A stretch of 44,419 nt of DNA from the IMG/VR virus record IMGVR_UViG_3300046543_000574, positions 1 to 44,419 of that record; one strand, 5' to 3'. Both the position numbers and the translations under genes were made by a program. The notes beneath the pieces are model-generated. The model did not search any database. It worked only from the letters and a program-made list of their open reading frames with translations, and was not told the origin of the DNA. The stretch is from a virus. Below are positions 839 to 44,419 of this stretch, piece by piece; the first letter of the stretch is position 1, and the number at the start of each line of letters is the position of its first letter.

Positions 839-1656
839 CTCGCCCCAACTCCACCCAGCCAGTTCCACCTTCCTCCCTATCTAAGAGGCTGGAGGATCGG
901 GAGCGGGTCCAACGGCTTGAGGAAGCGGGGGAGAAGCTGGCTGTGGAGGCGCGCCACCGCCTACACGATGTAACCGACGACGACCTCGACCATGCAGCGT
1001 GGAGCGGCCCACAGGCGGAGGCGCTCAACGCTTGGAATGAGGCCCGGAAGGCGCTCAGGCCCGAGACACCGCCCCGAGACGCAATCTCCCAACTGGCCGA
1101 GTGCTACCGATTGAGCGGCGCAGACCCAGACGGTGACCCTGACTGGATGCTGGCGAAGGATGCGGTCGTGGAGGTCAAGCGGATGCGGGCGGAACTGGAC
1201 GAGCGGGAATCAGAGGATGGAAGCAAGGGGCGGGTCGTCGTTGAGCTATCCCTTGAGGAGGCGACCGCACTGGTGACGATTGCCCTTGGTAACTCCCAGG
1301 AACAGCACGAAGCTCGCATCCGTGCGCACACCGAGTCTGTCGCGGTCCCCGTCGTCCCAGCCTCTCTCCTTGAAGAAGAACAAGAGCGTGTTGAGCGGGC
1401 CGAAGATCAAAAGCACGCAGTCCTAGAGACGATTGGTCCAGCCGAAGATAAGCGGCGGCGACTCGAAGCCCGCGCCGAGGCCGCCGAGTCCCACGTTGAG
1501 CGAGTACGGCAAGAGCTATTGGAGCGGGCGGGCAGAGCGTGGAGCGAGGCTGGCCGGAAGCGACTCGAAGGCAGGCTCGAAGGCTCCAATCACCGCGAGG
1601 GAGAAGCGGTCGCCTACGAACACGCCGCCCGACTACTACTCGCACCAGACCAATGA
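835..1656 (+). CDS. patchwork-family coiled-coil protein
   Basis: 273 aa from GTG 835 (GTGA overlap). Long charged helical segments (about residues 12-45 and 175-260) predict coiled coil. Two DNA blocks tie it to the right-edge genes. The first 33 bases match 44062-44094 with two differences, and 1206-1250 is identical to 42828-42872, encoding the shared peptide ESEDGSKGRVVVELS. Outside these blocks the proteins differ, so this is a mosaic family. No catalytic motif is seen and the function is unknown. Confidence 0.7.
   Translation: MTRPNSTQPVPPSSLSKRLEDRERVQRLEEAGEKLAVEARHRLHDVTDDDLDHAAWSGPQAEALNAWNEARKALRPETPPRDAISQLAECYRLSGADPDGDPDWMLAKDAVVEVKRMRAELDERESEDGSKGRVVVELSLEEATALVTIALGNSQEQHEARIRAHTESVAVPVVPASLLEEEQERVERAEDQKHAVLETIGPAEDKRRRLEARAEAAESHVERVRQELLERAGRAWSEAGRKRLEGRLEGSNHREGEAVAYEHAARLLLAPDQ
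1206..1250 (+). repeat. 45-bp block shared with the 42124 gene
   Basis: Identical to 42828-42872; 36 bases of it also occur at the right edge in 44310-44348. It encodes ESEDGSKGRVVVELS in frame. Confidence 0.85.
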
Positions 1657-2499: not shown

Positions 2500-2744
2500 G
2501 CGAGCTGCATCTTGAAAACGCCGCCGCCTGCTTGCAGCGCATCCTCTCAGCCAGAGACCCCGATCACGTCTACGTGGTCAGCGTCCGGCCACGGGATGGG
2601 GACGATGCCCGAGGCCGAGCCGTTGGGGCCGCTGGGGAGCGTGAGGTGGGCTCCGTAGCGGAAGCAACGAACGCGGTCAGCGACAGCGACCCGAGCACCC
2701 GACCCAACCGGCCGCACCACGACCGCAGCAAGCAAGTGGCGTAG
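2496..2744 (+). CDS. possible gene end antisense to the integrase
   Basis: GTG 2496 overlaps the preceding stop (GTGA). The first 35 residues (MSELHLENAAACLQRILSAR...) look like an ordinary helical phage protein. The rest, from about 2547 on, lies antisense to the integrase C-terminus and is low-complexity. One reading is a gene whose 3' end was replaced when the integrase module was acquired. It could also be spurious. Confidence 0.3.
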   Translation: MSELHLENAAACLQRILSARDPDHVYVVSVRPRDGDDARGRAVGAAGEREVGSVAEATNAVSDSDPSTRPNRPHHDRSKQVA

Positions 2745-3989
2745 GAGGGAGTTGCGCTCATCATGGTTCAGGTCCGCCCAAATCCCAGCCCCGCCCTGGA
2801 GCGCCGGCAGTTGAGGGGCACGCGCCATCTCGCGCCTCAGCGCCTCCCGGGCCGCGTCTACCTGTTCGCGCCTCACCCTCATTCCGAGCGCAGCATCAGC
2901 AGCACCCAGCCCGGCGAAGTCCACCGCCTCGACGTACCCGGCCAGCTCAGCCTCGGCCTCAGCCAGCGCAACCCGAGCTCGCTCTACGCCATCCCCCGCC
3001 GAGACAGTCGCCTCCAGCCGGTCAAGCTCCGCAAGAGCCACTTCTTCGACGTAGGTATCGACGCGAACGCAGTTGATCGCCACCGGGGCCGGACATCGCT
3101 TCCCCGAGTGATTCGTCGGGCAGGTGTAGACCTTCTCCCTGCGGCTGCCGCTCCGCGTCATTACATGCCCGCAGCTCGCGCATCGCACCAAGCCTGCGAG
3201 CAGAGCGGTCGGCAGGGTGCTTCTGGGGGGCCGAGGTCCAGAGTCGAGCTTCGCTTGCACCGCCTCGAACGTCTCCGGTTCAAGAATCGGATCGTGGGCC
3301 TCGGTGTTGACGTGCCGCCCGACCTTCAACTCCCCAAGGTAGACGCGGTTTCGGAGCAGGGAGCGCAGCCCACCCGGCGTCATCCCGAGCCGTTGAGACA
3401 AGGCCAAAATGCGCTCCCCTCGCAGGAAGTCTCGCGCCGCGTCACGGACCTCATCCGCCTGCTCGTTGATAACGAGGCCGCGAGTGTCGGGATCGCGGTC
3501 ATAGCCCCGAGGCGTTTGGCGGCGCTGCCAGATCCCGTTCTCGACAGCGCCGCGCCTCGCCCTCTCAAACCCCTCTCGCCGCTCCTCTCGCTGGTGCTGG
3601 TCGATCGAGGCCAAGAGGTTTCGCTGCAAGCGCCCTGCCGCCGTAGAGCCGTCGATATTCTCTCGCGCCGAGTAGACGACACCCCCGACGCCCTCGACCT
3701 CGTCCCAGAGGTCCAGCATCAGCCGCAGATCGCGTCCAGCCCGGGACAGGTAGGCGACCACAACCCCGGAATACAGGCCCGACTTGACGCCCTCCACCGC
3801 TTGACGAAAGACCGGGCGAGAGGCATCGGAGCCCTTCGCGTCAAGCTCTGGCGGCAGCAGCTCGACGCGATAACCTTGCGCCTTCGCCCAGGCTTCAATC
3901 TCTGCGGTCTGTTCTTCGGGCGAGCGCAGCCGCTCCAAGTCACGCTTTCCCACGTGGCTCACGCGCATATACCCGGCCAGCAGTCCCAC
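2547..3989 (-). CDS. int: large serine integrase
   Basis: 480 aa from GTG 3989. A TTG at 4019 would add ten residues but has no ribosome-binding site. With the chosen start the catalytic serine of GYMRVS is residue 11, as usual for serine recombinases. Next come LSRAGRDLR (about 85-93, active-site arginines), the recombinase domain (TPRGYDRDPDTRGLVINE, about 159-176), a zinc ribbon (C270-x2-C273...C290...C299) and a charged coiled-coil region. It catalyses attP x attB integration. It is the only leftward gene between the early and late operons. attP was not located. Confidence 0.95.
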   Translation of the reverse strand: MGLLAGYMRVSHVGKRDLERLRSPEEQTAEIEAWAKAQGYRVELLPPELDAKGSDASRPVFRQAVEGVKSGLYSGVVVAYLSRAGRDLRLMLDLWDEVEGVGGVVYSARENIDGSTAAGRLQRNLLASIDQHQREERREGFERARRGAVENGIWQRRQTPRGYDRDPDTRGLVINEQADEVRDAARDFLRGERILALSQRLGMTPGGLRSLLRNRVYLGELKVGRHVNTEAHDPILEPETFEAVQAKLDSGPRPPRSTLPTALLAGLVRCASCGHVMTRSGSRREKVYTCPTNHSGKRCPAPVAINCVRVDTYVEEVALAELDRLEATVSAGDGVERARVALAEAEAELAGYVEAVDFAGLGAADAALGMRVRREQVDAAREALRREMARAPQLPALQGGAGIWADLNHDERNSLLRHLLAAVVVRPVGSGARVAVADRVRCFRYGAHLTLPSGPNGSASGIVPIPWPDADHVDVIGVSG

Positions 3990-4040
3990 CGATCCGACCC
4001 TAGCGCAAAGATCGCCCAAAGCACTACGGGCGTTCTTTGC

Positions 4041-4048
4041 CTATATAG
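4041..4048. promoter_or_regulatory. palindromic AT-rich box in the int/late divergent region
   Basis: The intergenic region between the leftward integrase and the rightward gene at 4070 contains the perfect palindrome CTATATAG, the most AT-rich spot nearby. It could act as a -10 element in either direction. No convincing -35 is seen, so promoter activity is a guess. An AGGAGG ribosome-binding site follows at 4058-4063. Confidence 0.3.
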
Positions 4049-4069
4049 CCCCGACCCAGGAGGCACCCT

Positions 4070-4210
4070 ATGAAGCCACGAACGGCAAGCGCCCGTCTCG
4101 ATGCCCTACGAAAACGAGCGGATGAAGGCAGCGAGAGAGCAGGGCGCGAAGTGGTCCGCCTGTGCCGCAAAGGCATGGTCTCGCCCTATTGGGAACGGAA
4201 GCGGCGATGA
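4070..4210 (+). CDS. 46-aa basic protein, first gene of the late-strand operon
   Basis: ATG 4070 has a strong AGGAGG seven bases upstream, and the stop TGA 4208-4210 overlaps the ATG at 4207. The product is rich in Arg and Lys (starts MKPRTASARLDALRKRADEG) and could bind nucleic acid. It lies directly opposite the integrase start across a 50-80 bp intergenic region, the place where small excision or regulatory proteins often sit. That role is inference only. Confidence 0.55.
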   Translation: MKPRTASARLDALRKRADEGSERAGREVVRLCRKGMVSPYWERKRR

Positions 4211-5100: not shown

Positions 5101-5343
5101 ATGGGCACGATCCAGACCCAAATCCCACCCCGTCAACCGATGGGACCGTATCCAGCCGGCCGAGCCTGCTCAAGCTGCGGTGCCCACTTGAAGACCACGA
5201 ATCCAGGCCCCGACTGCGAGCCCTGCCTCACCCCGGCATCTGAGCTACACGCTCCAGACGACCCAATGCTCTCCGAACTAGACCGCCTACGTATCGGCAG
5301 AGAGCTAGAAGCGCTGGCCGAGGACGAGCGGGTTGCGGCGTGA
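5101..5343 (+). CDS. small four-cysteine zinc-ribbon-like protein
   Basis: 80 aa from ATG 5101. No ribosome-binding site is visible, so the start is uncertain. Residues 23-44 hold CSSC...C...C (ACSSCGAHLKTT, then CEPC), a typical zinc ribbon, followed by an acidic helical C-terminus. GTGA overlap with the next gene at 5340. Unknown function; possibly a small regulator. Confidence 0.6.
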   Translation: MGTIQTQIPPRQPMGPYPAGRACSSCGAHLKTTNPGPDCEPCLTPASELHAPDDPMLSELDRLRIGRELEALAEDERVAA

Positions 5344-5429
5344 CCCGCAACCACTTCGAGAACTTCTGCCTAGCCCTACTCGCCTTCACCTGTGTCGCCG
5401 GCATCGCCTTCATGCAGCGGTACGTCTGA
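5340..5429 (+). CDS. 29-aa membrane peptide
   Basis: GTG 5340 overlaps the previous stop (GTGA); the stop at 5427-5429 directly precedes the GTG of the HNH gene. Residues 8-26 are hydrophobic (NFCLALLAFTCVAGIAFM), giving one likely membrane helix. Supported only by tight packing and composition. Confidence 0.4.
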   Translation: MTRNHFENFCLALLAFTCVAGIAFMQRYV

Positions 5430-5726
5430 GTGCTCTACGCCTGCACTGTCTGCTCTCGGCTCTCGCCCAACCGCCAATGCCCAGACCACCAAGGGACGAA
5501 GCGCAATGGCTCAACCCGAGAGTGGCGCAAGACCAGAGAGCGCATCCTCGAGCGAGACGGCTACCGCTGTACCCAAACACTGGGCGATGGCGCTCGCTGC
5601 CCGATCACCACGAACTTGCACGTCGACCACCGCATCCCCAAAGCAATGGGCGGAAGCGATGGGGACGAGAACCTAGCCTGCCTCTGCTCCACGCACAATC
5701 TGCGAAAGGGCGATACGGCGGGCTAG
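5430..5726 (+). CDS. HNH endonuclease next to the terminase
   Basis: 98 aa from GTG 5430. The HNH core is clear: LHVDH at residues 63-67, then IPKAMGGSDGDENL with N81, and H89 in CSTHN. N-terminal C5, C8 and C17 and later C47 and C57 probably bind structural zinc. HNH proteins encoded near TerL are required for packaging and specific cleavage in several phages, such as HK97 gp74. This one lies about 600 bp upstream of terL, so that role is likely. A homing function is the alternative. Confidence 0.85.
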   Translation: MLYACTVCSRLSPNRQCPDHQGTKRNGSTREWRKTRERILERDGYRCTQTLGDGARCPITTNLHVDHRIPKAMGGSDGDENLACLCSTHNLRKGDTAG

Positions 5727-5771
5727 TCAGATCAACCAACCCGAGCGCGATGCTCAGGAAAGGAAGGCGCG

Positions 5772-6071
5772 ATGCCTGCCACCCAGGAGTACAAGAACCA
5801 GACGTTCACGATCACCTCCACCATCCAGTACCGAGGACCGCAGTTCCCCGACGACGTCCCTGAGTCGCTCCGAGAGACGCTCCGAGAGATGGCCAAAGGC
5901 AAGGGCGAGCCGTGGGTCTATCGCTTCGCCACCGAGTGCGGTCGCGTTGCATGGGTGCCGGTCTCGAAGGAGTTGGTTGAGGACGCGGCGATTGATGCTG
6001 AGGGTGAGATCCGTCGCATGGCTGGACTCGCGCTGGCCGAACTGCCTGGAGGCAGCGATGCCAGCCACTGA
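5772..6071 (+). CDS. hypothetical protein upstream of terminase (99 aa)
   Basis: ATG 5772 has GGAAAGGAAGG just upstream. The product is a mixed alpha/beta, acidic protein with a tail ending GGSDASH. No domain is recognised. It overlaps the next small gene at 6058. Given its place between HNH and TerL, a packaging accessory or small terminase role is possible but unproven. Confidence 0.65.
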   Translation: MPATQEYKNQTFTITSTIQYRGPQFPDDVPESLRETLREMAKGKGEPWVYRFATECGRVAWVPVSKELVEDAAIDAEGEIRRMAGLALAELPGGSDASH

Positions 6072-31660: not shown

Positions 31661-32281
31661 ATGAACGTCGAGGATTACCGCAAGCGGTTGGTAGAAGGCC
31701 GCGCCAAAGAACGCCATTTCGTCTCAGTTCGCAACGCCTGGAGAACCATCGTCAAGAAGCGGGCGCTGCAACTGAAGCATGCGATCGAACGGCGCAAGGC
31801 CCTCGACAAGCCGCACGTGGTGGGGAAGAACCTGGTCGTCGGCGGCAAGCCCCAGGAGCGGCTCCTGTTCGCCATGGAATACGCGCACCGGATCTTCCGC
31901 CTCGAATACTCAGAGGCCGGAACCTGGGTCAAGGGCTACGGCCTGACCAACGTTCCGGGCGGCCACGGCTACCGCACGGACTGTAGCTGGTGGTACACGA
32001 TGCTCCGCTACGCCTGCGGCCTCAGAGGCCCGAGCATCGATGGCGGCTACACGGGCACGATTCTCACGGAAGGCAAGGAGGAGACGCGCTCCTACGCCGA
32101 ATGTCACGCGGGCGTCGCGGTCGTGTACGGCAGCGGGACCGGCTTCCACGTAGCCATGTCCACCGGCAAGGGCCCGACCGTCTACCAGCACGGCGTCCCT
32201 GAAGTGGATACCGGGACATTCGATCAGTTCGGGGCGGGCACGGAAGTCCGCTATCGCAGCTTCTCCAACTCAAAGCGCTAA
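31661..32281 (+). CDS. endolysin, NlpC/P60-like peptidase
   Basis: 206 aa from ATG 31661 with AGGAGG upstream. The N-terminal 60 residues are a basic helical part. The catalytic part has GHGYRTDCSWWYTMLRYACG with Cys108, then GTGFHVAMSTGKGP with His163, an arrangement of the NlpC/P60 (C40) and CHAP superfamily. It cuts peptide bonds in peptidoglycan at the end of infection. No signal peptide is seen, so export depends on a holin such as the neighbour at 32296. Confidence 0.82.
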   Translation: MNVEDYRKRLVEGRAKERHFVSVRNAWRTIVKKRALQLKHAIERRKALDKPHVVGKNLVVGGKPQERLLFAMEYAHRIFRLEYSEAGTWVKGYGLTNVPGGHGYRTDCSWWYTMLRYACGLRGPSIDGGYTGTILTEGKEETRSYAECHAGVAVVYGSGTGFHVAMSTGKGPTVYQHGVPEVDTGTFDQFGAGTEVRYRSFSNSKR

Positions 32282-32295
32282 CGAAAGGTAAGTCC

Positions 32296-32466
32296 ATGAA
32301 GCCCCTGCACCCAAAGGTGAAGGTCCCCGCAGTCGTCGGAACGGTCATCGCAATCGTTCTCGCCGTCCTCGCTGCGGTCTCCTCCATTCCGCAGTACGCG
32401 CCCTACGTCGCCATCGGCGTCACGGTCATCACGGCGATCAGCGGCTACCTCACCTACGCGCCATGA
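32296..32466 (+). CDS. holin-like protein (56 aa)
   Basis: ATG 32296 with GAAAGG upstream; it ends TGA 32464-32466. It starts MKPLHPKVKVPAVVGT and has two hydrophobic helices (about 10-28 and 34-52, the second with VAIGVTVITAISGYL). Size, topology and place right after the endolysin are typical of small actinophage holins. Confidence 0.7.
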   Translation: MKPLHPKVKVPAVVGTVIAIVLAVLAAVSSIPQYAPYVAIGVTVITAISGYLTYAP

Positions 32467-32622: not shown

Positions 32623-32922
32623 GTGAGCCGGGGAATCCAGCGCGAGAGGGATCGGGTCAACTGGTATCGCGACCGCGACTGGTTCGCGATGCGCGCCCCG
32701 GCGTCTCTCGGTCCCGTGGACGTAATCGCAGCTAAGGCCGGAGAGCGGCTGCGCTTCGAGGAGTTGAAGTCGACCAGCGCCGGTCCTTATCACTCGTTTG
32801 GGCCGCAGGATCGGGCTGAGCTCAGCTTTATGGCGAAGCTCGCAGGAGCGGACGCCTACCTCGTTTGGTGGCCTCCGCGCAGCAAGCCGAAGGTCATTCC
32901 CGAGTCGGAGTGGCCGACCTAA
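32623..32922 (+). CDS. PDDEXK-type nuclease (Holliday junction resolvase-like)
   Basis: 99 aa from GTG 32623. It begins SRGIQRERDRVNWYRDRDWF, then has ASLGPVDVIAAKAGERLRFE followed by ELKST. The D in GPVDVIA and the E-x-K in EELKST form the PD-(D/E)xK active site, as in Hjc resolvases, and RAELSFMAKLAGADAYLVWW completes the fold. It probably resolves branched DNA before packaging or acts in repair. The gene sits in the late operon after lysis genes. Confidence 0.8.
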   Translation: MSRGIQRERDRVNWYRDRDWFAMRAPASLGPVDVIAAKAGERLRFEELKSTSAGPYHSFGPQDRAELSFMAKLAGADAYLVWWPPRSKPKVIPESEWPT

Positions 32923-33568: not shown

Positions 33569-33629
33569 CGTGCGCTCTTTACCGACAATTTGGACAAGAA
33601 GCGTCCATGCGGTTGTCCGGCGTGATTTA

Positions 33630-33839
33630 GTGCACGACGAATTGCAGGGGGACAGCGCAGAGCAAAGGCGGGCATGGCTGCTAGGAGCGGCCGTAGCGGG
33701 CATGAATGTCCTCGCAGCCCTTGCAGGCGAGAGCGAGGACACGGCGGAGCTGGCCTCTACTTTTCTTTGCGCTGCTGCCGTTTGGGCCGAGCGTGCCGGG
33801 GAGGAAGGGCAGCCTTTGCTGCTGCGGCGGCTGATTTAG
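33630..33839 (+). CDS. small helical hypothetical protein, convergent with repressor
   Basis: 69 aa from GTG 33630; an earlier GTG at 33570 is also in frame. No ribosome-binding site is visible. The product has AGMNVLAALAGESEDTAELA and looks like a regular helical protein. Its last 83 bases overlap the 3' end of the leftward repressor. Either this gene or the repressor tail may be shorter than drawn. Confidence 0.35.
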   Translation: MHDELQGDSAEQRRAWLLGAAVAGMNVLAALAGESEDTAELASTFLCAAAVWAERAGEEGQPLLLRRLI

Positions 33840-34212
33840 ACGAGCGAGGTTTGCGCTTCGGCTTCTCGCCTATCAGGCGAAGAATCCGATCCATCTTCTC
33901 CTCGATCCGCTCAAGCTGACTTTCTTCCTGCTCCACGGCGGGCTTTAGCTCTGTCGCGTCGATCTTCAGCCCTTCCGCGATTCGCCGGATTGTCACGGCG
34001 CGCGGATCACCGACCTTCCTCTCCTCGATCCGCTTGATCGTCTTGTAGGAGACGCCCGCACGGGAGGCCAGCTCCTCCCTGCTGAGGCTCTGCGCTTTGC
34101 GCTCCTCCTGGATGCGCGTCGCCATTCGCTCGCGGTAATCGGCCATCTGGCGGGCGAGGGTAAGACGAAGACCCGGAAAGTGCTGGGTCATTTGAGGAGG
34201 GGGCACTTGCAT
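33757..34212 (-). CDS. XRE-family repressor (immunity repressor candidate)
   Basis: 151 aa from ATG 34212. Residues 33-85 are a helix-turn-helix (LSREELASRAGVSYKTIKRI). A charged coiled-coil stretch (about 93-116) probably dimerises it. The last 35 residues are very basic and Ala-rich. There is no peptidase domain for RecA-linked self-cleavage. The -10 of its likely promoter ends only a few bases before ATG 34212, so the message may be leaderless. ATG 34191 and 34145 are alternatives without ribosome-binding sites. It likely maintains lysogeny. Confidence 0.85.
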   Translation of the reverse strand: MQVPPPQMTQHFPGLRLTLARQMADYRERMATRIQEERKAQSLSREELASRAGVSYKTIKRIEERKVGDPRAVTIRRIAEGLKIDATELKPAVEQEESQLERIEEKMDRILRLIGEKPKRKPRSSKSAAAAAKAALPPRHARPKRQQRKEK

Positions 34213-34235
34213 TCCGCCGAATGTACCGTTAATGT
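34207..34235 (+). promoter_or_regulatory. rightward early promoter candidate
   Basis: TTGCAT (34207-34212), 17 bases, TAATGT (34230-34235): a near-consensus sigma-A promoter. The expected start is about 34242, giving a leader of about 19 bases to ATG 34261. The -10 overlaps an operator half-site. Confidence 0.6.
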
Positions 34236-34248
34236 CCCACGGACACAA
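34220..34248 (-). promoter_or_regulatory. leftward repressor promoter candidate
   Basis: Read on the minus strand: TTGTGT (34248-34243), 17 bases, TACATT (34225-34220). The expected start is about 34213, next to ATG 34212. It overlaps the rightward promoter almost completely, so the two must compete. Confidence 0.55.
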
Positions 34249-34258
34249 GGTGGACATT
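34220..34258. promoter_or_regulatory. operator cluster of the lysis-lysogeny switch
   Basis: AATGTAC (34220-34226), AATGTCC (34231-34237) and GGACATT (34252-34258) are repeats of one half-site, and TGTCC-CAC-GGACA (34233-34245) is a perfect 13-base palindrome. These cover the -10 of both promoters and the leader of the rightward gene. Binding by either XRE protein is inferred. Confidence 0.65.
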
Positions 34259-34260
34259 CG

Positions 34261-34455
34261 ATGACCCCCCCAACAGAGACAGACATTGGCAAGCGCCTCA
34301 GACGCGACCGGGAGGCCCTGGGGCTGACCCGTGAGGACGTGGCTTCGAGAGCGCGGCTCTCCTACAAGACCATCGAGCGCATCGAGGCTGGGGACTCCAT
34401 CCCTCGCCGCTCCACCCTGCACGTCCTTGAAGAAGCTCTCAAGGAGGCAGCGTGA
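34261..34455 (+). CDS. small XRE-family regulator (Cro-like position)
   Basis: 64 aa from ATG 34261 with AAGGTGG upstream. Almost the whole protein is one helix-turn-helix domain (DIGKRLRRDREALGLTREDV, then RLSYKTIERIEAGD). It diverges from the repressor gene and is the first gene of the early operon, the place of cro or an excisionase-type regulator. GTGA overlap with 34452. Confidence 0.82.
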   Translation: MTPPTETDIGKRLRRDREALGLTREDVASRARLSYKTIERIEAGDSIPRRSTLHVLEEALKEAA

Positions 34456-35450: not shown

Positions 35451-35710
35451 TGCTCCTCGATGCTCTCTCACAAACCGCCCATGACCTCGCCATAGGACTA
35501 GCTGCAGGGCTTGTCCTCCTGCTACTCGGCTACTTGATTGTGCGCTCGAATCTGCGGCTGAAGGAGCGAGAGGCAGCACTACGCCAGAAGGAAAGCGAAG
35601 AGGTGGTTCCGGCTTTTAGCGGCCCCCTAGATTGGCCTCCGAAACGTGGCGACCCACACCCCCGTAGCCATGAAGCGATAGTGCCACGGGCGGGGAGGAA
35701 GGCGGCATGA
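35450..35710 (+). CDS. single-pass membrane protein (86 aa)
   Basis: ATG 35450 overlaps the previous stop. One membrane helix (about 14-32, AIGLAAGLVLLLLGYLIV) is followed by a charged helix and a Pro/Arg-rich cytoplasmic tail. ATGA overlap with 35707. Function unknown. Confidence 0.6.
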   Translation: MLLDALSQTAHDLAIGLAAGLVLLLLGYLIVRSNLRLKEREAALRQKESEEVVPAFSGPLDWPPKRGDPHPRSHEAIVPRAGRKAA

Positions 35711-36054
35711 GCGACCTACCTAAGAGGCTGGAGGAAATGGCAAAGGACTGTGAGCGGACCCGCGCTTCCGGCGAGTTCATTCGGACCCTCCGAGAAGCCG
35801 CCAACGCCCTACAGGAAGTGAAAACGGAGCAGGTAGAGGAGCGGCGGCGGAGTCTCGAAGCAGCGCACGAGGCCCTTCGCCAAATCGTTGATGCAAGAGA
35901 AACCGAGGACATGTCATCAAGCGCGTGGATTGACTGGGCAATAAGAACAGCCCGTGGCGGCCTGAACATCGGGCCGCTCTTGCGCTGGCCAGATCCAGAG
36001 ATAGGGCGGCAGGAAGACGCAGCGGTCGAGTCGCGGGAGGTCCAAGGTGGCTGA
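35707..36054 (+). CDS. coiled-coil accessory protein related to the patchwork family
   Basis: 115 aa. It starts MSDLPKRLEEMAKDCERT; the DNA CTAAGAGGCTGGAGGA near its start also occurs near 880 in the 835-1656 gene. Residues 1-70 are helical and charged, and the rest is mixed. It overlaps the next gene by eight bases. Function unknown. Confidence 0.55.
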   Translation: MSDLPKRLEEMAKDCERTRASGEFIRTLREAANALQEVKTEQVEERRRSLEAAHEALRQIVDARETEDMSSSAWIDWAIRTARGGLNIGPLLRWPDPEIGRQEDAAVESREVQGG

Positions 36055-36397
36055 CGACTGGGCCTTTTTCGTGCATCCAGACGGCGAGTACGTGTCGATC
36101 AACGATGGCACTCACGGCGACACGCTTTTAAAGATGCCCAAGGGGTCTGTGGACGGGGAGCGGGTCCGCCAATTCGCTGCCGCCCTTGAACACATACAGC
36201 TGGGTGAGGGGGATCGGGAGCGGCTGCGGGAGGCGATCGTCTCCGCCATTGAGTGCATGGCGGGACCGCTGGGGCGTGCGAGATCGCGGGCGCTTGATGG
36301 GGTCAGCGATACCGACCAGATGCGGGACCTTGATCTCGTAGCCGACGGCGTAAAGATGCTCCGTGCCGCCCTATCCCAATCAGAGGGGTCCAAGTGA
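36047..36397 (+). CDS. hypothetical protein with patchwork-family tail
   Basis: 116 aa from GTG 36047. The N-terminal beta part reads DWAFFVHPDGEYVSINDG. The C-terminus LRAALSQSEGSK is encoded by DNA (GCCGCCCTATCCCA at 36365-36378) that recurs at 42631-42644 (differing only in its first base) and 44293-44306. In those genes the same tail continues into the longer shared module. It looks like a truncated module end. Confidence 0.55.
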   Translation: MADDWAFFVHPDGEYVSINDGTHGDTLLKMPKGSVDGERVRQFAAALEHIQLGEGDRERLREAIVSAIECMAGPLGRARSRALDGVSDTDQMRDLDLVADGVKMLRAALSQSEGSK

Positions 36398-36446
36398 CCT
36401 TCCTTCAAGCCCTATACACAATGGTCAAGGGTGGGGGAATACGGCT

Positions 36447-37001
36447 GTGAGCGCCTACACCGTCAAGCGCGTAGACGACTCGCCCCGCGAATGGACCTCC
36501 AAACAGGGCGGGACGTTCCTCTCCTACACGGTCGATCTCGAGGACATCGAGGGCAAGGTCCAAGCGGGCATCGAGTGGAACCGCAAACCGGAGAGCCGAG
36601 CGCCCGAGGTTGGCGATCGCATCGCGGGCAACATCGAACCGGGCAAGTTCAGCGAACGCTTCAAAATGGACTACGAGGCGACGAAAGAACTGACGGGCGG
36701 CGGCGGCTCCTCCGACTACCGAAGCGGGGGAGAAGCGAAGAGCAAGGGCGGCTGGAAGCCCGAGAGCCAATACGACCCCGAGAAAGTCGCCCGCATCACA
36801 CGCGCTCACTCCCAGGAGATGAGCATTCGCGTCTTCGCCCTCATCGAGGGCCACCTGGAGAACAACGACGAGGCGATAGGCCACGCGCTCAATCGCATTC
36901 GCAAGATTGCGGATTGGTTCGATGCCGACATTCAGCGAGCCGCTGCGGTGGAGAGTGCGAAGGCTGAACTCGGCGCTACCGAGGAGGGGCCGGCGTTCTG
37001 A
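36447..37001 (+). CDS. single-stranded-DNA-binding-like protein
   Basis: 184 aa from GTG 36447. Residues 1-85 look like an OB-fold (AYTVKRVDDSPREW, FLSYTVDLEDIEGKVQAGIE, VGDRIAGNIEPG). A Gly/Ser linker follows. Then comes a helical domain YDPEKVARITRAHSQEMSIR (about 111-130) through HALNRIRKIADWFDADIQ, and the end EEGPAF is acidic like SSB tails. It likely protects ssDNA during phage replication or recombination. Confidence 0.65.
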   Translation: MSAYTVKRVDDSPREWTSKQGGTFLSYTVDLEDIEGKVQAGIEWNRKPESRAPEVGDRIAGNIEPGKFSERFKMDYEATKELTGGGGSSDYRSGGEAKSKGGWKPESQYDPEKVARITRAHSQEMSIRVFALIEGHLENNDEAIGHALNRIRKIADWFDADIQRAAAVESAKAELGATEEGPAF

Positions 37002-37428: not shown

Positions 37429-37751
37429 GCCAGAAAGCGACCGTCCTCAAGATGCTCCGCAACGCAGGAGAGCGAGGGGTACGTAGTGACGAGTTCATTC
37501 GCTCTTACATGCCACGGGGCTGCGCTCGCGTTCTGGAGCTGAAGGAAGACGGCTACGAGATAGAGGACACCCGAGAGGGCAAATACAAGCGATTCGTCCT
37601 ACGGGGCGAGGTCGGACACAGGGTTGGGGGCCGGGGTGAGCCCTCGCCCCCTCTCTCGAGGGCAGCCGATGCGACCCCTAGCCCTGTGTCGGGCCAGCTC
37701 TTTGACGTTCCTCCCCGCTCGGCCTTCACAGACGACGAGATGGCCGCGTGA
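37425..37751 (+). CDS. winged-helix DNA-binding protein
   Basis: 108 aa from ATG 37425 (ATGA overlap). Residues 1-57 form a winged helix (ATVLKMLRNAGERGVRSDEF, then CARVLELKEDGYEIEDTRE and KYKRFVL). The C-terminal half is Pro/Ser-rich and disordered and ends FTDDEMAA. GTGA overlap with the methyltransferase gene. It may regulate early genes or act in replication. Confidence 0.65.
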   Translation: MSQKATVLKMLRNAGERGVRSDEFIRSYMPRGCARVLELKEDGYEIEDTREGKYKRFVLRGEVGHRVGGRGEPSPPLSRAADATPSPVSGQLFDVPPRSAFTDDEMAA

Positions 37752-38422
37752 AGCCCTACTACGAAGACGAGAGCTGCACGATCTACCACGGGGACTGCTG
37801 CGAGGTGCTGCGGAGCATCGAGGCTACGGTGATGGTGACGGACCCGCCGTATGGGATGGCCTTTAAATCGAACAGACACGGCGCACGATACGAGACTTGG
37901 GCCACCGCTAATCGCCCTGTGTCGATAGCGGGAGACCTTGACACGCAGGCCCGCGACACCGTTTTGAGACTGTGGGACCCCTTCCCGGCGCTGGTCTTTG
38001 GAACGTGGAAACGACCCCGGCCCAAGCACACAAAGGCAGTTCTAACCTGGATCAAGGGCGATCACCTTGGCATGGGGGACCTATCCATTCCTTGGCGTCC
38101 GAATACAGAGGAGATCTATGTTCTCGGCTCCGGGTTTAGGGGCCACCGGGGAACCTCGGCACTCGACTTTCCGGCACCCGTGTCGTGGGCGTCGAAGGGC
38201 CGCGACCATCCACATGAAAAGCCCGTAGCCCTGCTCAGGGAGCTGATTGGTAAGTGCCCCAAGGGCACCGTCCTCGACCCCTTCATGGGCTCTGGCACCA
38301 CCCTCCGCGCCGCAAAGGATCTCGGCCGCAAAGCAATCGGAATCGAGATAGAGGAGCGCTACTGCGAGATAGCCGCTGAACGTCTCGCGCAAGAGGTTCT
38401 CGACCTTGGAGCAGCCGCCTAA
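37748..38422 (+). CDS. DNA methyltransferase (N4/N6 type), copy 1
   Basis: 224 aa from GTG 37748. Motif order is catalytic DPPYG (32-36) first and the AdoMet-binding DPFMGSGTT (177-185) near the C-terminus, as in beta-type amino-methyltransferases. It methylates an amino group of A or C in a specific site, probably to protect phage DNA. Its last 71 shared bases (38336-38406) are identical to those of the second methyltransferase. No cognate restriction gene is adjacent. Confidence 0.88.
   Translation: MKPYYEDESCTIYHGDCCEVLRSIEATVMVTDPPYGMAFKSNRHGARYETWATANRPVSIAGDLDTQARDTVLRLWDPFPALVFGTWKRPRPKHTKAVLTWIKGDHLGMGDLSIPWRPNTEEIYVLGSGFRGHRGTSALDFPAPVSWASKGRDHPHEKPVALLRELIGKCPKGTVLDPFMGSGTTLRAAKDLGRKAIGIEIEERYCEIAAERLAQEVLDLGAAA
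38336..38406 (+). repeat. 71-bp identical 3' block of methyltransferase 1
   Basis: Identical to 40265-40335. It encodes IGIEIEERYCEIAAERLAQE and the next few residues in both enzymes. The rest of the two genes is clearly different, which points to gene conversion or recombination at the 3' ends. Confidence 0.9.
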
Positions 38423-38553
38423 TGCCCGACCCCGTATGCGCCCGCTGTAGCCACCCCCTTACCGCAGAGTGGTATTGGGCCAAGAAGGACGGAAAGACAA
38501 CAGGGCAGGGCGTGTGTGCGAGCTGTGCGACGGAGAAAGAGAAGGCGGCGTGA
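38422..38553 (+). CDS. 43-aa zinc-knuckle protein
   Basis: ATG 38422 overlaps the methyltransferase stop (TAATG) and the stop overlaps GTG 38550. It has VCARCSHPLTAEWYWAKKDG, then VCASC and a charged tail: two CxxC pairs. Probably a tiny zinc-binding protein; function unknown. Confidence 0.55.
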   Translation: MPDPVCARCSHPLTAEWYWAKKDGKTTGQGVCASCATEKEKAA

Positions 38554-39327: not shown

Positions 39328-39680
39328 TGACCCTCACCGCGCTCCCAGACCGCAGTTACGAGCAGCGCATGAGCGCTCTCGCCCGAGCCAACGAGATTCG
39401 CTTCGCCCGCGCCCGCCTGAAGAAGGCCCTCAAGGCAGGCGACTACACCCCGGCCACCGTTCTGTTCTCGCTGCAGTACGACTGGCTTCACAAGATGCGG
39501 GTCGAGCAGGTCTTACTCGCCACCCCGACTCTCGGCCGAGTCAAGGTCGCCCGAGCGCTCAATAGCTGCCGCATCAGCCCCTCCAAGACCATCGAGGGAA
39601 TGACCGAAAGGCAGCGAGAAGAGTTGCTCTCCTACCTTGCCGAGAAGTACCCGCAGGCTGAGATTGGAGCGGTGGCGTGA
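39327..39680 (+). CDS. mIHF-like DNA-binding protein
   Basis: 117 aa; ATG 39327 overlaps the previous TAA. It follows the actinobacterial integration host factor pattern: a long basic N-terminal helix (ANEIRFARARLKKALKAGDY, 21-40), a helix around residue 50, and an H2TH-like part (MRVEQVLLATPTLGRVKVAR, 57-76). The C-terminal helix has GMTERQREELLSYL. mIHF bends DNA and organises the nucleoid. Here it may help replication, transcription or recombination. The usual glycine-rich PGVG hairpin reads TPTLG. Confidence 0.7.
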   Translation: MTLTALPDRSYEQRMSALARANEIRFARARLKKALKAGDYTPATVLFSLQYDWLHKMRVEQVLLATPTLGRVKVARALNSCRISPSKTIEGMTERQREELLSYLAEKYPQAEIGAVA

Positions 39681-40351
39681 AGCCGTATTACGAACAGGGC
39701 GGGATCGCTATTTACCACGGGGATGCGGTAGATCTTCTCCCCTCGCTCGGCCACTTCGGCCTCTGTCTCACAGACCCGCCCTACGGAGTCAACTACGTCA
39801 GCAACACAGGTGGACGTAGAGGCAAGGAGCCGATCAGCAACGACGGGACTCGGATTTCCCTCGCGCTATATCGACGGCTAATGCCCCTCCTAGACGCGGA
39901 CCATGTTCTGTGGTTCACGCGCTGGGACGCTTGGCCCGATGTTTGGGGGATTCTCGGCCATTCATTTCCCCTGCGCGGCCTGCTGGTCTGGGACAAGGGG
40001 ACGCCGGGGATGGGCGATCTAAAGCATTGGGGCCTTTCCTACGAGCTGATTGCATCGGCGGGAATAGGGAAACTCAACGGTTCTAGAGACGGCAGCATCC
40101 TTCGATTCCCGGGCGTCCCTCATTCATCCCGGAAGCACCCGACGGAGAAGCCCGTCGCACTCCTCCGATACCTCATTGAACAACTCGCGCCAACGAGCGT
40201 TGTTGACCCTTTCATGGGAAGCGGGCCAACTCTAGAAGCCGCCGCAGGGCTCGGGATACCGACCATCGGAATCGAGATAGAGGAGCGCTACTGCGAGATA
40301 GCCGCTGAACGTCTCGCGCAAGAGGTTCTCGACCTCGGAGCGGTGGCCTAA
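39677..40351 (+). CDS. DNA methyltransferase (N4/N6 type), copy 2
   Basis: 224 aa from GTG 39677. DPPYG is at 33-37 and DPFMGSGPT at 177-185; the usual GSGTT or GSGTS reads GSGPT, a change in the AdoMet loop that may lower activity. Length and motif positions match copy 1, but the middle, which includes target recognition, differs. The 3' block 40265-40335 is identical to copy 1. It is followed directly by an HNH gene (TAATG overlap). Confidence 0.85.
   Translation: MKPYYEQGGIAIYHGDAVDLLPSLGHFGLCLTDPPYGVNYVSNTGGRRGKEPISNDGTRISLALYRRLMPLLDADHVLWFTRWDAWPDVWGILGHSFPLRGLLVWDKGTPGMGDLKHWGLSYELIASAGIGKLNGSRDGSILRFPGVPHSSRKHPTEKPVALLRYLIEQLAPTSVVDPFMGSGPTLEAAAGLGIPTIGIEIEERYCEIAAERLAQEVLDLGAVA
40265..40335 (+). 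repeat. 71-bp identical 3' block of methyltransferase 2
   Basis: Second copy of the block at 38336-38406, in the same frame. Confidence 0.9.
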
Positions 40352-40905
40352 TGTCCCTACACGAAGCAAAGGAGTGCGGCTGCTCAAAGGAAATCGGGAT
40401 GACTGAGGCCCGTACTCGGCACCACTGCGAGCACGGCAATCTGTTCGTGTATGTCAAGGCGTTGGGGAGCAAGGCCGGCAGGCCGCGCACGTCTTTCCGC
40501 ACCTCTCGTCCGAAGGAGAGCGCCGCCGAACGCACGGCCCGCGAGGAGTTCAACGAGACCGTCAAGGCGTGGCCCTGCCTGTTCTCCACCAGCCGCAGAG
40601 GGCATGTATGCGATGGGGAACTCGACGCCCACCATCTTGTCCCCAAGAGCGTTTTGAGATTCCGGCTCTCGGACTGGTCTGAGCCCGACCTTCTCGCGGT
40701 CCTCTACCACCCGCACATCGGCGCTCCGCTCTGCCGTCGCGCTCACGAACTGGTGACCGTCAAAGCCGAGTACGTCTACTGGGACGAACTCTCGCCCGAG
40801 TGCCTCGACTTCGTCTCCTCACTGCCTGATTTCGTCCTGATGCGGCTCGAAAAAGAGAGCCCGAAACGCAAGCTGGAGAGTCCCTCAGGAGTAGTGGGGA
40901 TGTGA
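40351..40905 (+). CDS. HNH nuclease-like protein between two methyltransferases
   Basis: 184 aa from ATG 40351. The core reads HVCDGELDAHHLVPKSVLRF (about 87-106), then LYHPHIGAPLCRRAHEL, matching an HNH/His-Me finger pattern. The N-terminal 45 residues contain cysteines and histidines (CGCSKE, HHCEHG) that may bind zinc. The neighbours on both sides are methyltransferases, so it could be a restriction partner; a homing nuclease is the other option. Confidence 0.7.
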   Translation: MSLHEAKECGCSKEIGMTEARTRHHCEHGNLFVYVKALGSKAGRPRTSFRTSRPKESAAERTAREEFNETVKAWPCLFSTSRRGHVCDGELDAHHLVPKSVLRFRLSDWSEPDLLAVLYHPHIGAPLCRRAHELVTVKAEYVYWDELSPECLDFVSSLPDFVLMRLEKESPKRKLESPSGVVGM

Positions 40906-41738
40906 CCGGAAGAACTCCACTGACGTATTACGGCGGCAAGCAGAAGTTGGCGGCTCAGATCGTGGAGTTGATGCCCAGCCACGTCGCTTACCTGGAGCCG
41001 TTTGCGGGTGGGGCTGCTGTCCTCTTTGCCAAGCCAGCAGCGGAGCGGGAGACGCTGAACGACATCGACGGTCAGATCATGCGGTTCTGGCGGGCGCTGC
41101 GTGACCGGCCGGAGGAGCTGGCATCGGCGGTAGCCACCACGCCCTACGGCCGCTCGGAGTGGAAAGCGTCGATCGACGGAGATGCGGACGATGACGTAGA
41201 GGCGGCGCGGCGGTTGCTGGTCAACGTCGACATGTCGTTCTCCCGCTCCCGGAGCAGCTGGTCCCCGCCTTCGATGCTGAAAGACCGCAAGGGACGCTGG
41301 CAGCCCCGCACTTGGCAAGACCTCCCCCGCCGAATCACCGTGGCGGCTGAGCGACTCACGAACGTCTGTCTGGAGTGTGGCGACGCGCTCGACATGATCC
41401 CGCGCTGGGATTTGCCCGACACGATGATCTACGTGGACCCGCCCTACACAGGGGCCCATCGCCTCCAGATGGACAAGGGCTACACGCACGACGCCGGGCC
41501 CGACCTCTGGACTGATCTCGTTGACGTTCTGGGGTCGATCGAGAACGCCGCCGTAATCGTCTCGGGCTATCCCTGCGAGGAGGTCGATCGACTCGGCTGG
41601 CGGACACTCGCCCTCGATGCGAACCGCAACGTGCAGGCGCGAGCTGGCGGAAAACTCCCGAAGGCACCCGAGACGCTCTGGCTCTCACCCGCCGTACCTG
41701 ATCCGTGGCCTGACCTTCTGAGCGGAGCAGCCGCATGA
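40902..41738 (+). CDS. D12-class DNA adenine methyltransferase (Dam-like)
   Basis: 278 aa from GTG 40902. Order of motifs: LTYYGGKQKL (7-16), EPFAGG (32-37, AdoMet binding), then DPPYTG (179-184, catalytic), the alpha class typical of Dam and DpnM. It methylates N6 of adenine in a specific site. It is the third methyltransferase in four kilobases, and the target site cannot be read from sequence alone. Confidence 0.9.
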   Translation: MTGRTPLTYYGGKQKLAAQIVELMPSHVAYLEPFAGGAAVLFAKPAAERETLNDIDGQIMRFWRALRDRPEELASAVATTPYGRSEWKASIDGDADDDVEAARRLLVNVDMSFSRSRSSWSPPSMLKDRKGRWQPRTWQDLPRRITVAAERLTNVCLECGDALDMIPRWDLPDTMIYVDPPYTGAHRLQMDKGYTHDAGPDLWTDLVDVLGSIENAAVIVSGYPCEEVDRLGWRTLALDANRNVQARAGGKLPKAPETLWLSPAVPDPWPDLLSGAAA

Positions 41739-41763: not shown

Positions 41764-42102
41764 ATGGAGACAGCAACGATTCCAGTTCCAGAGATCAGCG
41801 ATGTTGAAGCGGCTTTCCCCGCGAACGTCCTCGACTGGATGCCGCCCCGCGATGAGATCCCCGAGGAGTTCAGGTTCATGCGCGGTCGCTCGGAATGGAA
41901 CGAGATCGCCGACAGCTGGTTCGCCAATGGTCTGCCCGGGAACGTGGAGTTCTATCCCCGGGATGGCGTGGACCCCGAGAAGGCGGTCAAGGCGATCAGC
42001 GCGGTCCTCGGCAGCTTCGCCCCAAAGCATGAGCACAAGGAGGAGGCCGCCGCTTACCTCCTTTCGTGCTGGTTCTCGAAGATCAAGAACTGGAAGCGTT
42101 GA
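41764..42102 (+). CDS. hypothetical protein (112 aa)
   Basis: AAAGGAGG lies at 41744-41751; ATG 41764 is 12 bases away and TTG 41755 only three, so ATG is preferred. It contains LDWMPPRDEIPEEFRFMRGR and GNVEFYPRDGVDPEKAVKAI, and an end with two Trp and basic residues. No family recognised. It sits between the Dam-like gene and the patchwork gene. Confidence 0.55.
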   Translation: METATIPVPEISDVEAAFPANVLDWMPPRDEIPEEFRFMRGRSEWNEIADSWFANGLPGNVEFYPRDGVDPEKAVKAISAVLGSFAPKHEHKEEAAAYLLSCWFSKIKNWKR

Positions 42103-42123
42103 TGCCCAACCAGGAGAAGTGAG

Positions 42124-43032
42124 ATGAGGAAAGAGCAGGACATCTACTTGAAGGTCACCGTAGACCCGGACGAACTACGCGACTTCTACGGTCGAGACGA
42201 ACCGCTCACGAATATCGACTGGGCCTATCACCTCCGAATGGGCGACCTCCGCTTTGTCGAGCAAGCAACCCCTGTTGAAAACTGCCCAGACCTACGGGAG
42301 CGGTTCTTCAGCGCCCTAGAGGCGGCGGGGTGGAGCGACGGTGAAGAAATCCCGTCCGACGAAATCAACGCGGCGTTCGAGAAGGCCAACTCCACGGGCA
42401 AGGGCGATGAACTGCTTAGAAAGCTGAATCAGGCGAATGCCCAGATCGCAGCGTTTCGTGCCCGGCTCAACGCTCTACAGGACCTAGGAGGAGGGCTGCC
42501 AGAGAAGCTGCTGAGTGAGGAGGCGGTCCGCGAGGGATCGAAGGCGCTGGCTCCCGATGGGCATTCGTGGTCTAACCGCCGACCCGCTCTGGAAGACGAC
42601 GCCCGCGAGTGCATACGTGCTGCTTTGGATTCCGCCCTATCCCACTCAGAGGATGGAAGCTCCCTTTGCAAGGGTCAAGGGCAGTGGTTCCGTTTCAACG
42701 GCCCGACTCCGCAAACAACCCAGGTGGTCCTGTCACCGGGACGGCTCTATGAGTTTAAGCCCGGCGAGATTTTCAACGAACACGGCACCCGTATCGGTTA
42801 CCTGAACCGTGAAGATGCGCCCAAGTTGGAATCAGAGGATGGAAGCAAGGGGCGGGTCGTCGTTGAGCTATCGCGGGAGGAGGCACACGCTGCTAGGCAG
42901 AATCTCTGGCACTACGGCGACGACGCCGACTCCGCACTCGCTGGCGCTTACGGCAGCCTTGCCGCCGCTCTGATCCGCCATCCCGACTACGACGAAGTTG
43001 CCCAGAACCGAGCCGCCGAGGATGGGCCATGA
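42124..43032 (+). CDS. patchwork-family protein, longest member
   Basis: 302 aa from ATG 42124. It is built from blocks found elsewhere as exact DNA. NALQDLGGG (42469-42495) also occurs at 44161-44187. SEDGSKGRVVVELSREEAHA with its following residues (42834-42943) is repeated at 44310-44419. Part of the same block is in the 835 gene. Two copies of a SALSHSEDGS / LESEDGSKG motif occur inside this protein. No catalytic motif seen; it is probably an early accessory protein. Confidence 0.65.
   Translation: MRKEQDIYLKVTVDPDELRDFYGRDEPLTNIDWAYHLRMGDLRFVEQATPVENCPDLRERFFSALEAAGWSDGEEIPSDEINAAFEKANSTGKGDELLRKLNQANAQIAAFRARLNALQDLGGGLPEKLLSEEAVREGSKALAPDGHSWSNRRPALEDDARECIRAALDSALSHSEDGSSLCKGQGQWFRFNGPTPQTTQVVLSPGRLYEFKPGEIFNEHGTRIGYLNREDAPKLESEDGSKGRVVVELSREEAHAARQNLWHYGDDADSALAGAYGSLAAALIRHPDYDEVAQNRAAEDGP
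42834..42943 (+). repeat. 110-bp exact direct repeat, internal copy
   Basis: Identical to 44310-44419, the last 110 bases of the window. It encodes the shared module starting EDGSKGRVVVELSREEA. The first 39 bases (42834-42872) belong to a 45-bp block also present at 1206-1250. Confidence 0.9.
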
Positions 43033-43532
43033 ATAGAGAGACGACAGTTCCAGAGTCGGCGTTACAGGCGGTCAATCGGCTTGAATTTGAGGGCGGTCTG
43101 CCGGTCACGATGACGCCTGCTGAGCGCGATCAAGCGATCCTCCAAGCCGCCCTACCACACCTCCGAGCCCAATTCGCAGAGGAACTGCTGAGTGATGAGG
43201 CCGCCTGCGCGAACTGCCACGGTCACGGCACCGTCCCCCACCCGTTTCCATTCAACGCTCCATGCCCGCCCTGCCCACGTTGTGCGGGCACCGGGAAGCG
43301 GCCGCTGCGCCAAGGAGAAGAGCCATCGAAACCAACCGCTAACGCCCTGAAGCTGCGGGGGGCAATGGTCGAGATCGCTGACGAACTCGAACGGTGGGGA
43401 GCCAACAACGCCGACGAGAGTCAGACCGAGGGCGATGTACCAGAAGAGCGTTATAAGGCGTTTCAGCTAGCGGTTCATCTGATCCGCGCCGCCCTTGACC
43501 GAACCGCCCCCAATGCCCAACCAGGAGAGTGA
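43029..43532 (+). CDS. protein with DnaJ-type zinc finger
   Basis: 167 aa from ATG 43029 (ATGA overlap). CANCHGHGTV (about 58-67) and CPPCPRCAGTGKR (about 77-89) form CxxCxGxG-type zinc knuckles, as in DnaJ. The segment EELLSDEAA before it resembles EKLLSEEAV in the 42124 protein, another shared block. The C-terminal helix ends RAALDRTAPN. Function unknown. Confidence 0.6.
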   Translation: MNRETTVPESALQAVNRLEFEGGLPVTMTPAERDQAILQAALPHLRAQFAEELLSDEAACANCHGHGTVPHPFPFNAPCPPCPRCAGTGKRPLRQGEEPSKPTANALKLRGAMVEIADELERWGANNADESQTEGDVPEERYKAFQLAVHLIRAALDRTAPNAQPGE

Positions 43533-43574
43533 GATGAGGACGATAAACGAGAAAAGTGAGCAGGAGAAAACAAA

Positions 43575-43697
43575 ATGAGCGGCGTCAATAAGCACCACGT
43601 GATTCGCGGCAAGGTGTTCCTCTACATCTGGCGCGGCAATCGGCACCGCCACGTGATCCTCTACTTCTTCGGCCTCTACCTGCCGGTTTGGCGATGA
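43575..43697 (+). CDS. 40-aa basic aromatic peptide
   Basis: ATG 43575 has AGGAG nine bases upstream and the stop overlaps ATG 43694 (ATGA). Sequence VIRGKVFLYIWRGNRHRHVI, then LYFFGLYLPVW: basic and aromatic, with a weak membrane-like end. Function unknown; packing and ribosome-binding site support it. Confidence 0.5.
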   Translation: MSGVNKHHVIRGKVFLYIWRGNRHRHVILYFFGLYLPVWR

Positions 43698-44065
43698 GTG
43701 AGATGAGGAAAGAGCAGGAGGGAAGCGGCTGGAAGAAGCTCGACCCGATTGGGCCTGTGCGGAGCGGCTGTCTAAACTGCCCCCCGAAGCCTGAGGCCGC
43801 GCCGATGGATTGGGACCCGCATCCAGGGTTCGGTGGCGTTGACCTCACCCGAAACGGCGAGCGAGTCGTCAGCTACTTCCTGACGATTCACGACGAGGGA
43901 GATGACGCGGCGGCTATGACGGTCCAGGACTTCGAGGACCGAGCGGCGGGCGATCCCGACCACGACTGGCGCTTCAAGATCAACGGACCGCTCAGCGAAG
44001 TGACCTACCAGCGCCACGGCGACTCGGAGTGGTACGCGGTCGAGAAGGGCATGGGATTCGCGTGA
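43694..44065 (+). CDS. hypothetical protein (123 aa)
   Basis: ATG 43694 (ATGA overlap); TTG 43688 would add two residues. Residues 1-8 (MSEMRKEQ) are encoded by DNA identical to the leader of the 42124 gene (22 bases). The C-terminal half, with DFEDRAAGDPDHDWRFKING and VTYQRHGDSEWYAVEKGMGF, looks like a small alpha/beta domain. Its stop overlaps GTG 44062. Confidence 0.55.
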   Translation: MSEMRKEQEGSGWKKLDPIGPVRSGCLNCPPKPEAAPMDWDPHPGFGGVDLTRNGERVVSYFLTIHDEGDDAAAMTVQDFEDRAAGDPDHDWRFKINGPLSEVTYQRHGDSEWYAVEKGMGFA

Positions 44066-44419
44066 CCCGCCCCAACCCCACCCAGCCAGTTCCAGCATTC
44101 CCTGACCGCCTAATGATCCAGGCCCTACCCGGCAGCGAGAGCGTTCTGTACGTTCGATCCAACGCTCTACAGGACCTAGGAGGAGGGGGGCCGGCTCGAA
44201 AGGCATTGGAGTCCATCGTCGCCCAACCGCATGAGCCACCGGTTGTCGATGACTGGAGGCGGCAATTCGAACTGGTCCGCAACATCGCGCTCGCCGCCCT
44301 ATCCCAATTAGAGGATGGAAGCAAGGGGCGGGTCGTCGTTGAGCTATCGCGGGAGGAGGCACACGCTGCTAGGCAGAATCTCTGGCACTACGGCGACGAC
44401 GCCGACTCCGCACTCGCTG
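44062..44419 (+). CDS. patchwork-family protein, cut by the window edge (partial)
   Basis: Starts GTG 44062 (GTGA overlap) and remains open for 119 codons to the last base. It combines blocks seen elsewhere: TRPNPTQPVP (as in the 835 gene), NALQDLGGG (as in 42124), ALESIVAQPHEPPVVD (as at the left edge), and LEDGSKGRVVVELSREEA with following residues (as in 42124). If joined to base 1 the frame continues to TGA at 84-86, giving 147 aa. Confidence 0.65.
   Translation, partial: MTRPNPTQPVPAFPDRLMIQALPGSESVLYVRSNALQDLGGGGPARKALESIVAQPHEPPVVDDWRRQFELVRNIALAALSQLEDGSKGRVVVELSREEAHAARQNLWHYGDDADSALA
44204..44251 (+). repeat. 48-bp exact repeat of the window's left edge
   Basis: Identical to bases 1-48; the sequences differ from base 49 on. 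It encodes ALESIVAQPHEPPVVD in the same frame at both places. Because sequence continues past it on the right, it is not a simple terminal redundancy. Confidence 0.9.
44310..44419 (+). repeat. 110-bp exact direct repeat, right-edge copy
   Basis: Identical to 42834-42943. The window ends inside or exactly at the end of this repeat, which suggests that an assembly was broken or closed here. Confidence 0.9.

Follow-up and report, generated by a model that had tools for sequence, protein, structure and literature searches.

A patchwork of short, in-frame DNA blocks among early genes of a myovirus-like phage

Introduction

How does a cluster of small phage genes come to share stretches of identical DNA when the sequence between those stretches appears unrelated? 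IMG/VR record IMGVR_UViG_3300046543_000574, from an uncultured soil phage, raises this question. It is 44,419 bp long, classed as linear and without an end repeat, and the whole record was analysed here (the window). A sequence-only reading had described short exact blocks recurring in several genes and offered two explanations, an undescribed module-swapping system or repeat-driven recombination.

Results

A probably temperate, myovirus-like phage

Genes for terminase, portal, major head protein, contractile tail sheath, tape measure and baseplate make the phage myovirus-like (Table 1). Its large serine recombinase is probably an integrase; a plus-strand ORF without a family match (2763-4073) overlaps this gene, and the minus-strand integrase is probably the real one. 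The sequence-only reading had overlooked the integrase when it stated that no reverse transcriptase or transposase accounts for the blocks. The statement holds for reverse transcriptase, since PF00078 has no match anywhere in the record, and an action of the integrase on the blocks is without support. The integrase and two Cro/C1-type helix-turn-helix genes lying back to back suggest a probably temperate lifestyle. By portal, the best annotated relatives have actinobacterial hosts and the nearest genes among genome assemblies lie in Acidimicrobiales MAG contigs; judged from these relatives, the host is probably an actinobacterium. An Hjc-like, archaeal-type Holliday junction resolvase domain is encoded at 32623-32919 (E 2.7e-7). 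A search confined to the RecT family found no annealing protein of that type in the phage. An Rfam search matched nothing.

Table 1. Coordinates of genes and repeat blocks in the window
Feature	Position	Strand	Details
Left-edge fragment (L0)	1-86	+	3' end of truncated family member, ending ..LESIVAQPHEPPVVDVREIRKAMTHGE and a stop codon; frame read from sequence
Start block N1, gene 835	831-867	+	GTGA stop/start overlap plus VTRPNSTQPVP
Gene 835 (A)	835-1656	+	273 aa; family gene
KRLED block, gene 835	876-896	+	20/21 identical to 35715-35735, in frame
SEDGSK/GRVVVEL block, gene 835	1206-1262	+	initial 45 bp exact with 42828
Large serine recombinase	2547-4019	-	490 aa; Resolvase, Recombinase and zinc-ribbon domains
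Terminase	6335		gene position
Portal	7758		gene position
Major head protein	9919		gene position
Contractile tail sheath	19229		gene position
Tape measure	22407		gene position
Cro/C1-type HTH gene	33757-34422	-	
Cro/C1-type HTH gene	34180-34455	+	
Gene 35707	35707-36054	+	loosely related; KRLEE block
Gene 36047	36047-36397	+	loosely related; C-terminal AALSQSE block 36365-36386 again at 42631 and 44293
N6/N4 methyltransferase gene	37748-38422	+	3' end block 38336-38427
Second N6/N4 methyltransferase gene	39677-40351	+	3' end block 40265-40356
Junction block N2 (RBS/start)	42102-42140	+	42102-42130 again at 43513-43540 (97%)
Gene 42124 (B)	42124-43032	+	302 aa; family gene
NALQDLGGG block, gene 42124	42468-42500	+	initial 28 bp exact with 44160
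Gene 43029	43029-43532	+	neighbour, weakly linked; DnaJ-like CxxC zinc motif; N2 junction at 3' end
Gene 43703 (F)	43703-44065	+	in common with gene 42124: MRKEQ start block only
Gene 44062 (E)	44062-44419	+	family gene, cut off by contig end

Exact, in-frame repeats link the family genes

Exhaustive search of the genome found exact direct repeats of 110, 71, 48, 45, 39, 28 and 23 bp. The longest joins gene 42124 (42834-42943) to gene 44062 (44310-44419), the 48-bp repeat joins the left-edge fragment (1-48) to gene 44062 (44204-44251), and the 45-bp repeat joins gene 835 (at 1206) to gene 42124 (at 42828), with 39 bp also found at 44310. Those of 28 and 23 bp lie at 42468/44160 and at 42118-42140/43697-43719, and start block N1 (831-867) recurs at 44058-44094 over 37 bp with two mismatches (35/37). 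Self-alignment thus recovered the 110-, 48- and 45-bp blocks described before, extended one of 27 bp to 28 and the start block from 33 to 37 bp, and added a 71-bp methyltransferase repeat (38336/40265) that had been missed. The chance expectation in this genome is about 6e-8 for any exact 28-bp pair and about 0.002 for pairs of at least 20 bp. Four isolated actinophages with related portals, used as a control, had no exact repeat above 24 bp other than low-complexity ones.

The proposed links among 835, 42124, 44062 and the left-edge fragment through exact or near-exact blocks were confirmed, and gene 43703 joins them through 23 bp. The looser members fared less evenly: 35707 and 36047 are tied to the family by short, weak links of 16-22 bp, and 43029 by its RBS/start junction (16 bp exact in a 29-bp alignment of 97%) plus chance-level matches. 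The 43029 protein is small, with a DnaJ/anti-TRAP-like CxxC zinc motif and a weak match to an anti-termination Q-like PHROG (E 9.5e-5). By hand count, 241 of the 358 nt of gene 44062 (about 67%) lie in blocks that recur in the genome, with at least four different partners, and its unique parts measure 65, 11 and 41 nt. No family gene had a library match above cut-off; weak Pfam matches of 835, 42124 and 44062 to DUF3117 (13-15 bits, cut-off 25), all on the GRVVVEL stretch, are a lead only. An AlphaFold fold of 42124 from its single sequence had a mean pLDDT of 37 and was discarded as useless.

The blocks keep the reading frame, as had been claimed. All exact matches of at least 17 bp between early genes are in frame, and those of at least 12 nt divide into 22 in frame versus 3 out of frame, compared with 3.9 +/- 2.0 in-frame matches (maximum 9 in 300) among codon-shuffled early genes. 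This count treated gene 36363-37001 in the wrong frame; the correct one moves one match to in-frame, and a 16-bp match (922/36721) is out of frame after correction also. Structural genes, taken for comparison, gave 49 in-frame versus 22 out-of-frame matches, none longer than 17 bp, against shuffled values of 33.6 and 13.9, and so stood nearer their shuffled expectation than the early genes did. The repeats are real, far above chance and nearly all in frame.

The blocks are colinear and the spacers unrelated

The blocks had been thought to occur in different order. They are in fact colinear in every gene, running from start block through KRLED, NALQ, LESIV and the ALSQ/SEDGSK join to GRVVVEL, and permuted order is ruled out. 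Gene 835 carries N1 (831), KRLED (876) and SEDGSK-GRVVVEL (1206); gene 44062 carries N1 (44058), NALQ (44160), LESIV (44204), the ALSQ join (44293) and GRVVVEL (44306); and gene 42124 carries N2 (42118), NALQ (42468), an ALSH join (42631) and GRVVVEL (42828). Gene 35707 has KRLEE alone, save a weak NALQE, gene 36047 ends in ALSQSE, and the left fragment contains LESIV. One motif is present twice, in 42124 only. The arrangement is a presence/absence patchwork in which block content and intervening sequence vary.

Such colinearity in all members is as expected from one ancestral gene, and GTGA-linked tandem genes are easily duplicated. These could therefore be ordinary paralogues that arose by tandem duplication and diverged, with strongly conserved motifs remaining and occasional gene conversion. 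The fixed order expected of plain tandem paralogues was seen, and similarity outside the blocks was not. Single-sequence comparison of interblock protein segments, with 500 permutations per pair, detected no residual similarity (p 0.16-0.84 over segment pairs). The value was 0.50 for 42124 against 44062 between NALQ and ALSQ; beyond the common start it was 0.73 for 42124 against 43703 and 0.49 for 835 against 44062; and for 835 against 42124 past their common block it was 0.84. The blocks are therefore not merely the slowest-changing parts of visibly related, uniformly diverged paralogues. They are also identical at synonymous sites, and the N-termini differ, with N1 in 835 and 44062 and N2 in 42124 and 43703. 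On this evidence we consider plain paralogy unlikely. The earlier view that exchange is recent or maintained is borne out, since the blocks are exact, the spacers are unrelated and identity varies from block to block; the spread of those identities (91-100%) points to more than one event.

One step of such exchange has left a trace. In gene 42124, 15-bp direct repeats TCAGAGGATGGAAGC (42646-42660 and 42832-42846) flank a 186-bp (62-codon) segment; gene 44062 has no insert and a single TCAGAGGATGGAAGC, mismatched at one base on its left edge. On the left side of the join, 44062 is similar to the left copy (GCCGCCCTATCCCAAT, which matches 36365 over 16 nt and 42632 over 13 nt); on the right side it equals the right copy over 110 bp exactly. 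This is the expected trace of deletion between short direct repeats, or of the reverse insertion, and fits either direction.

The same pattern occurs outside the family. The two paralogous N6/N4 methyltransferase genes (METHYLTRANSFERASES) are 95.5% identical over their final 89 bp, 71 bp of them exact, and their proteins are 46% identical overall; this speaks for gene conversion acting locally within the early region. A third methyltransferase, of the D12 class, is encoded at 40902-41738. The GTGA junction before a methyltransferase start (39666-39685) has a 20-bp exact match in relative G004 (L027) at about 2456 in portal orientation, and G004 internally repeats 17 bp of this match (2164/2454).

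Most members probably form one cluster across the contig ends

In relative G006 (43,051 bp) the terminase lies near the left end, and the right end is a homologue of window 5333-5863 that follows a homologue of 40351; several relatives close with end overlaps of 123-127 bp, most at 42.6-44.9 kb. Because of this synteny and these circularly closing relatives, the window ends are predicted to adjoin on a circular map, which would bring gene 835, the left fragment and the members between 42124 and 44419 into a stretch of about 4.6 kb, not counting a gap that is unsequenced. A 43-kb dispersal of the family is ruled out on the same grounds, the separation being only apparent. The integrase lies about 0.9 kb from gene 835.

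Both contig ends fall inside repeat blocks, probably the reason that assembly stopped there. This would also suit an assembly artefact, in which a hypervariable locus was misjoined between strain variants at shared k-mers near the contig ends, above all in gene 44062 and the left edge, as would a linear record without an end repeat when several relatives close. However, the pairs 831/44058, 1206/42828, 42468/44160 and 42118/43697 are internal, in frame and flanked on both sides by unique sequence, and a relative from another metagenome has similar junction repeats. In addition, the shorter blocks (23-28 bp) fall below the k with which such metagenome assemblies build their final contigs, and the relatives' 126-127 bp overlaps fit k=127. 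We regard misassembly as rather improbable.

Junction repeats recur in related phages

A comparison with related phages for new block orders had been proposed. Among 44 related virus records there is no full relative of 42124 or 835, and similar junction repeats were found in G007 (L030). This phage has three tandem small genes with an exact 48-bp junction (RALNPTKEDR-stop/MSGITK) and a 36-bp start block, and two of the three are alike at both ends with largely different middles. Two genes of G014 have an identical 24-bp start, and in G017, G024 and G039 repeats precede genes and are apparently noncoding. In G004, a protein that otherwise differs has a 46-bp, 85% match to 1088-1133 (gene 835), which suggests exchange between phages. 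Because the early genes of most relatives lack comparable coding blocks, the patchwork is not general in the group; junction repeats recur in it, and the dense intragenic patchwork is, within this sample, peculiar to the present genome. Early genes of G001 (33596-33987) and G006 (32153-32387), in portal orientation, contain long low-complexity repeats of six-base type, ADAAAV- and SAAR-like.

Wider searches added little. IMG/VR contained no match to 20 bp taken exactly from the common block, and no relatives of the 42124, 835 and 44062 proteins were confirmed there; tblastn of phage records with 42124, 835 and 43029 found none, and the C-terminal module of 42124 had no confirmed match in GTDB genomes. 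Degenerate patterns gave three matches for the GRVVVEL module, all unrelated, and for the CYRLSGADPDG module only the known relative G004.

Discussion

We think it probable that tandem accessory genes coupled in translation acquired the patchwork through ordinary recombination at short homologies, with the frame kept by selection. On this view a probably temperate tailed phage carries, beside its integrase, a fast-evolving cluster of short accessory genes. What recurs as identical or nearly identical DNA, with order and frame preserved, are stop/start junctions and short stretches that code for linkers or helices. Several rounds of homologous or annealing recombination at short repeats, both inside the genome and between it and co-infecting phages, may have copied, converted, removed or substituted pieces, and selection would have purged frame-breaking products. 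The 62-codon segment of 42124 between its 15-bp direct repeats, with the one-copy join in 44062, would represent a deletion or insertion step. Red-beta needs at least 23-27 bp of exact pairing and RecA 31-34 bp (De Paepe et al. 2014, PMC3945230), and several blocks are of such sizes. Blocks of 28-110 bp fit these lengths, whereas shorter ones (15-22 bp) would need annealing or slippage. We count the Hjc-like resolvase in favour of this account; the RecT search without a match, the sub-minimal blocks of 15-22 bp and a pattern that is not general in relatives weigh against it.

Several known systems resemble the patchwork. Recently emerged shuffling of phage protein fragments leaves high identity between otherwise unrelated proteins, and its authors anticipate more such mosaicism among accessory proteins whose function is unknown (Smug et al. 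2023, PMC10684548). Set against the common fragment of at least 70% or at least 90% identity used there, the blocks here are 91-100% identical, and the remainder is unrelated by single-sequence comparison (p 0.16-0.84). Fragments in that survey are domain-sized, are compared between phages and come mainly from receptor-binding proteins, endolysins and replication proteins (PMC10684548), whereas those described here span 7-37 codons, are exact in DNA and lie within one genome and one gene cluster. Cluster K mycobacteriophages carry start-associated sequences (SAS and ESAS), the SAS being a 13-bp sequence at translation starts in 11-19 copies (Pope et al. 2011, PMC3203893). Short repeats at the starts of some genes in one genome are common to both cases, but our junction blocks differ from one another, have 2-3 copies and reach into coding sequence, and most blocks are gene-internal; unlike SAS, they do not form a single conserved repeat with a ribosome site ahead of many starts. 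Relaxed homologous recombination by Rad52-like phage recombinases acts between phage and prophage over longer homologies (De Paepe et al. 2014, PMC3945230). It too makes mosaics from short, partly diverged homology, with pairing lengths that match several blocks, although the RecT search identified no Rad52-like recombinase here. The blocks also resemble another arrangement in their repeated stop/start junctions. The interlinked ninR genes of lambda and the boundary sequences of lambdoid phages are tandem small genes with overlapping stops and starts, whose repeated junctions possibly guide exchange; there whole genes are swapped, unlike the present blocks, which also lie inside genes.

A stronger version would have the phage maintain a set of in-frame linkers and junctions that promote recombination (the SEDGSK linker, the GTGA start blocks), so that the same few modules are continually recombined into new early proteins. 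We hold this to be quite improbable; if true, populations would carry many alternative joins at the locus. A dedicated diversification system (a diversity-generating retroelement, invertible segments or a serine recombinase acting on the repeats) is very improbable: a large serine recombinase lies near the cluster, but lysogeny suffices to explain it, the cluster has no inverted repeats of at least 12 nt within 100 nt, and the blocks (22-110 bp) are unpermuted. Without a reverse transcriptase gene, a diversity-generating retroelement is ruled out, and a shufflon or other invertible segments by blocks that are all direct and by a recombinase of the large integrase type. The integrase is not needed for the patchwork, because the blocks have no common core and all run in one direction on one strand. 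With no permutation, no inverted or site-like common core, no reverse transcriptase and no machinery tied to the repeats, the undescribed module-swapping system is not supported, and the other option of the sequence-only reading, repeat-driven recombination, fits better.

Short-homology recombination would thus make this patchwork, probably real and unusual in density, a variation on known phage mosaicism with an ordinary mechanism. The proteins probably have host-specific early or anti-defence roles in which short modules are exchangeable, a guess from their position. Small early phage genes are mostly orphans of obscure origin; here the seams can still be seen, with starts, linkers and ends identical in DNA and unrelated sequence in between. 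The locus offers a concrete, testable case of accessory genes assembled by recombination at codon-level repeats, a class under-sampled by large mosaicism surveys, and if population reads gave alternative joins, the rate of new-gene formation would become measurable.
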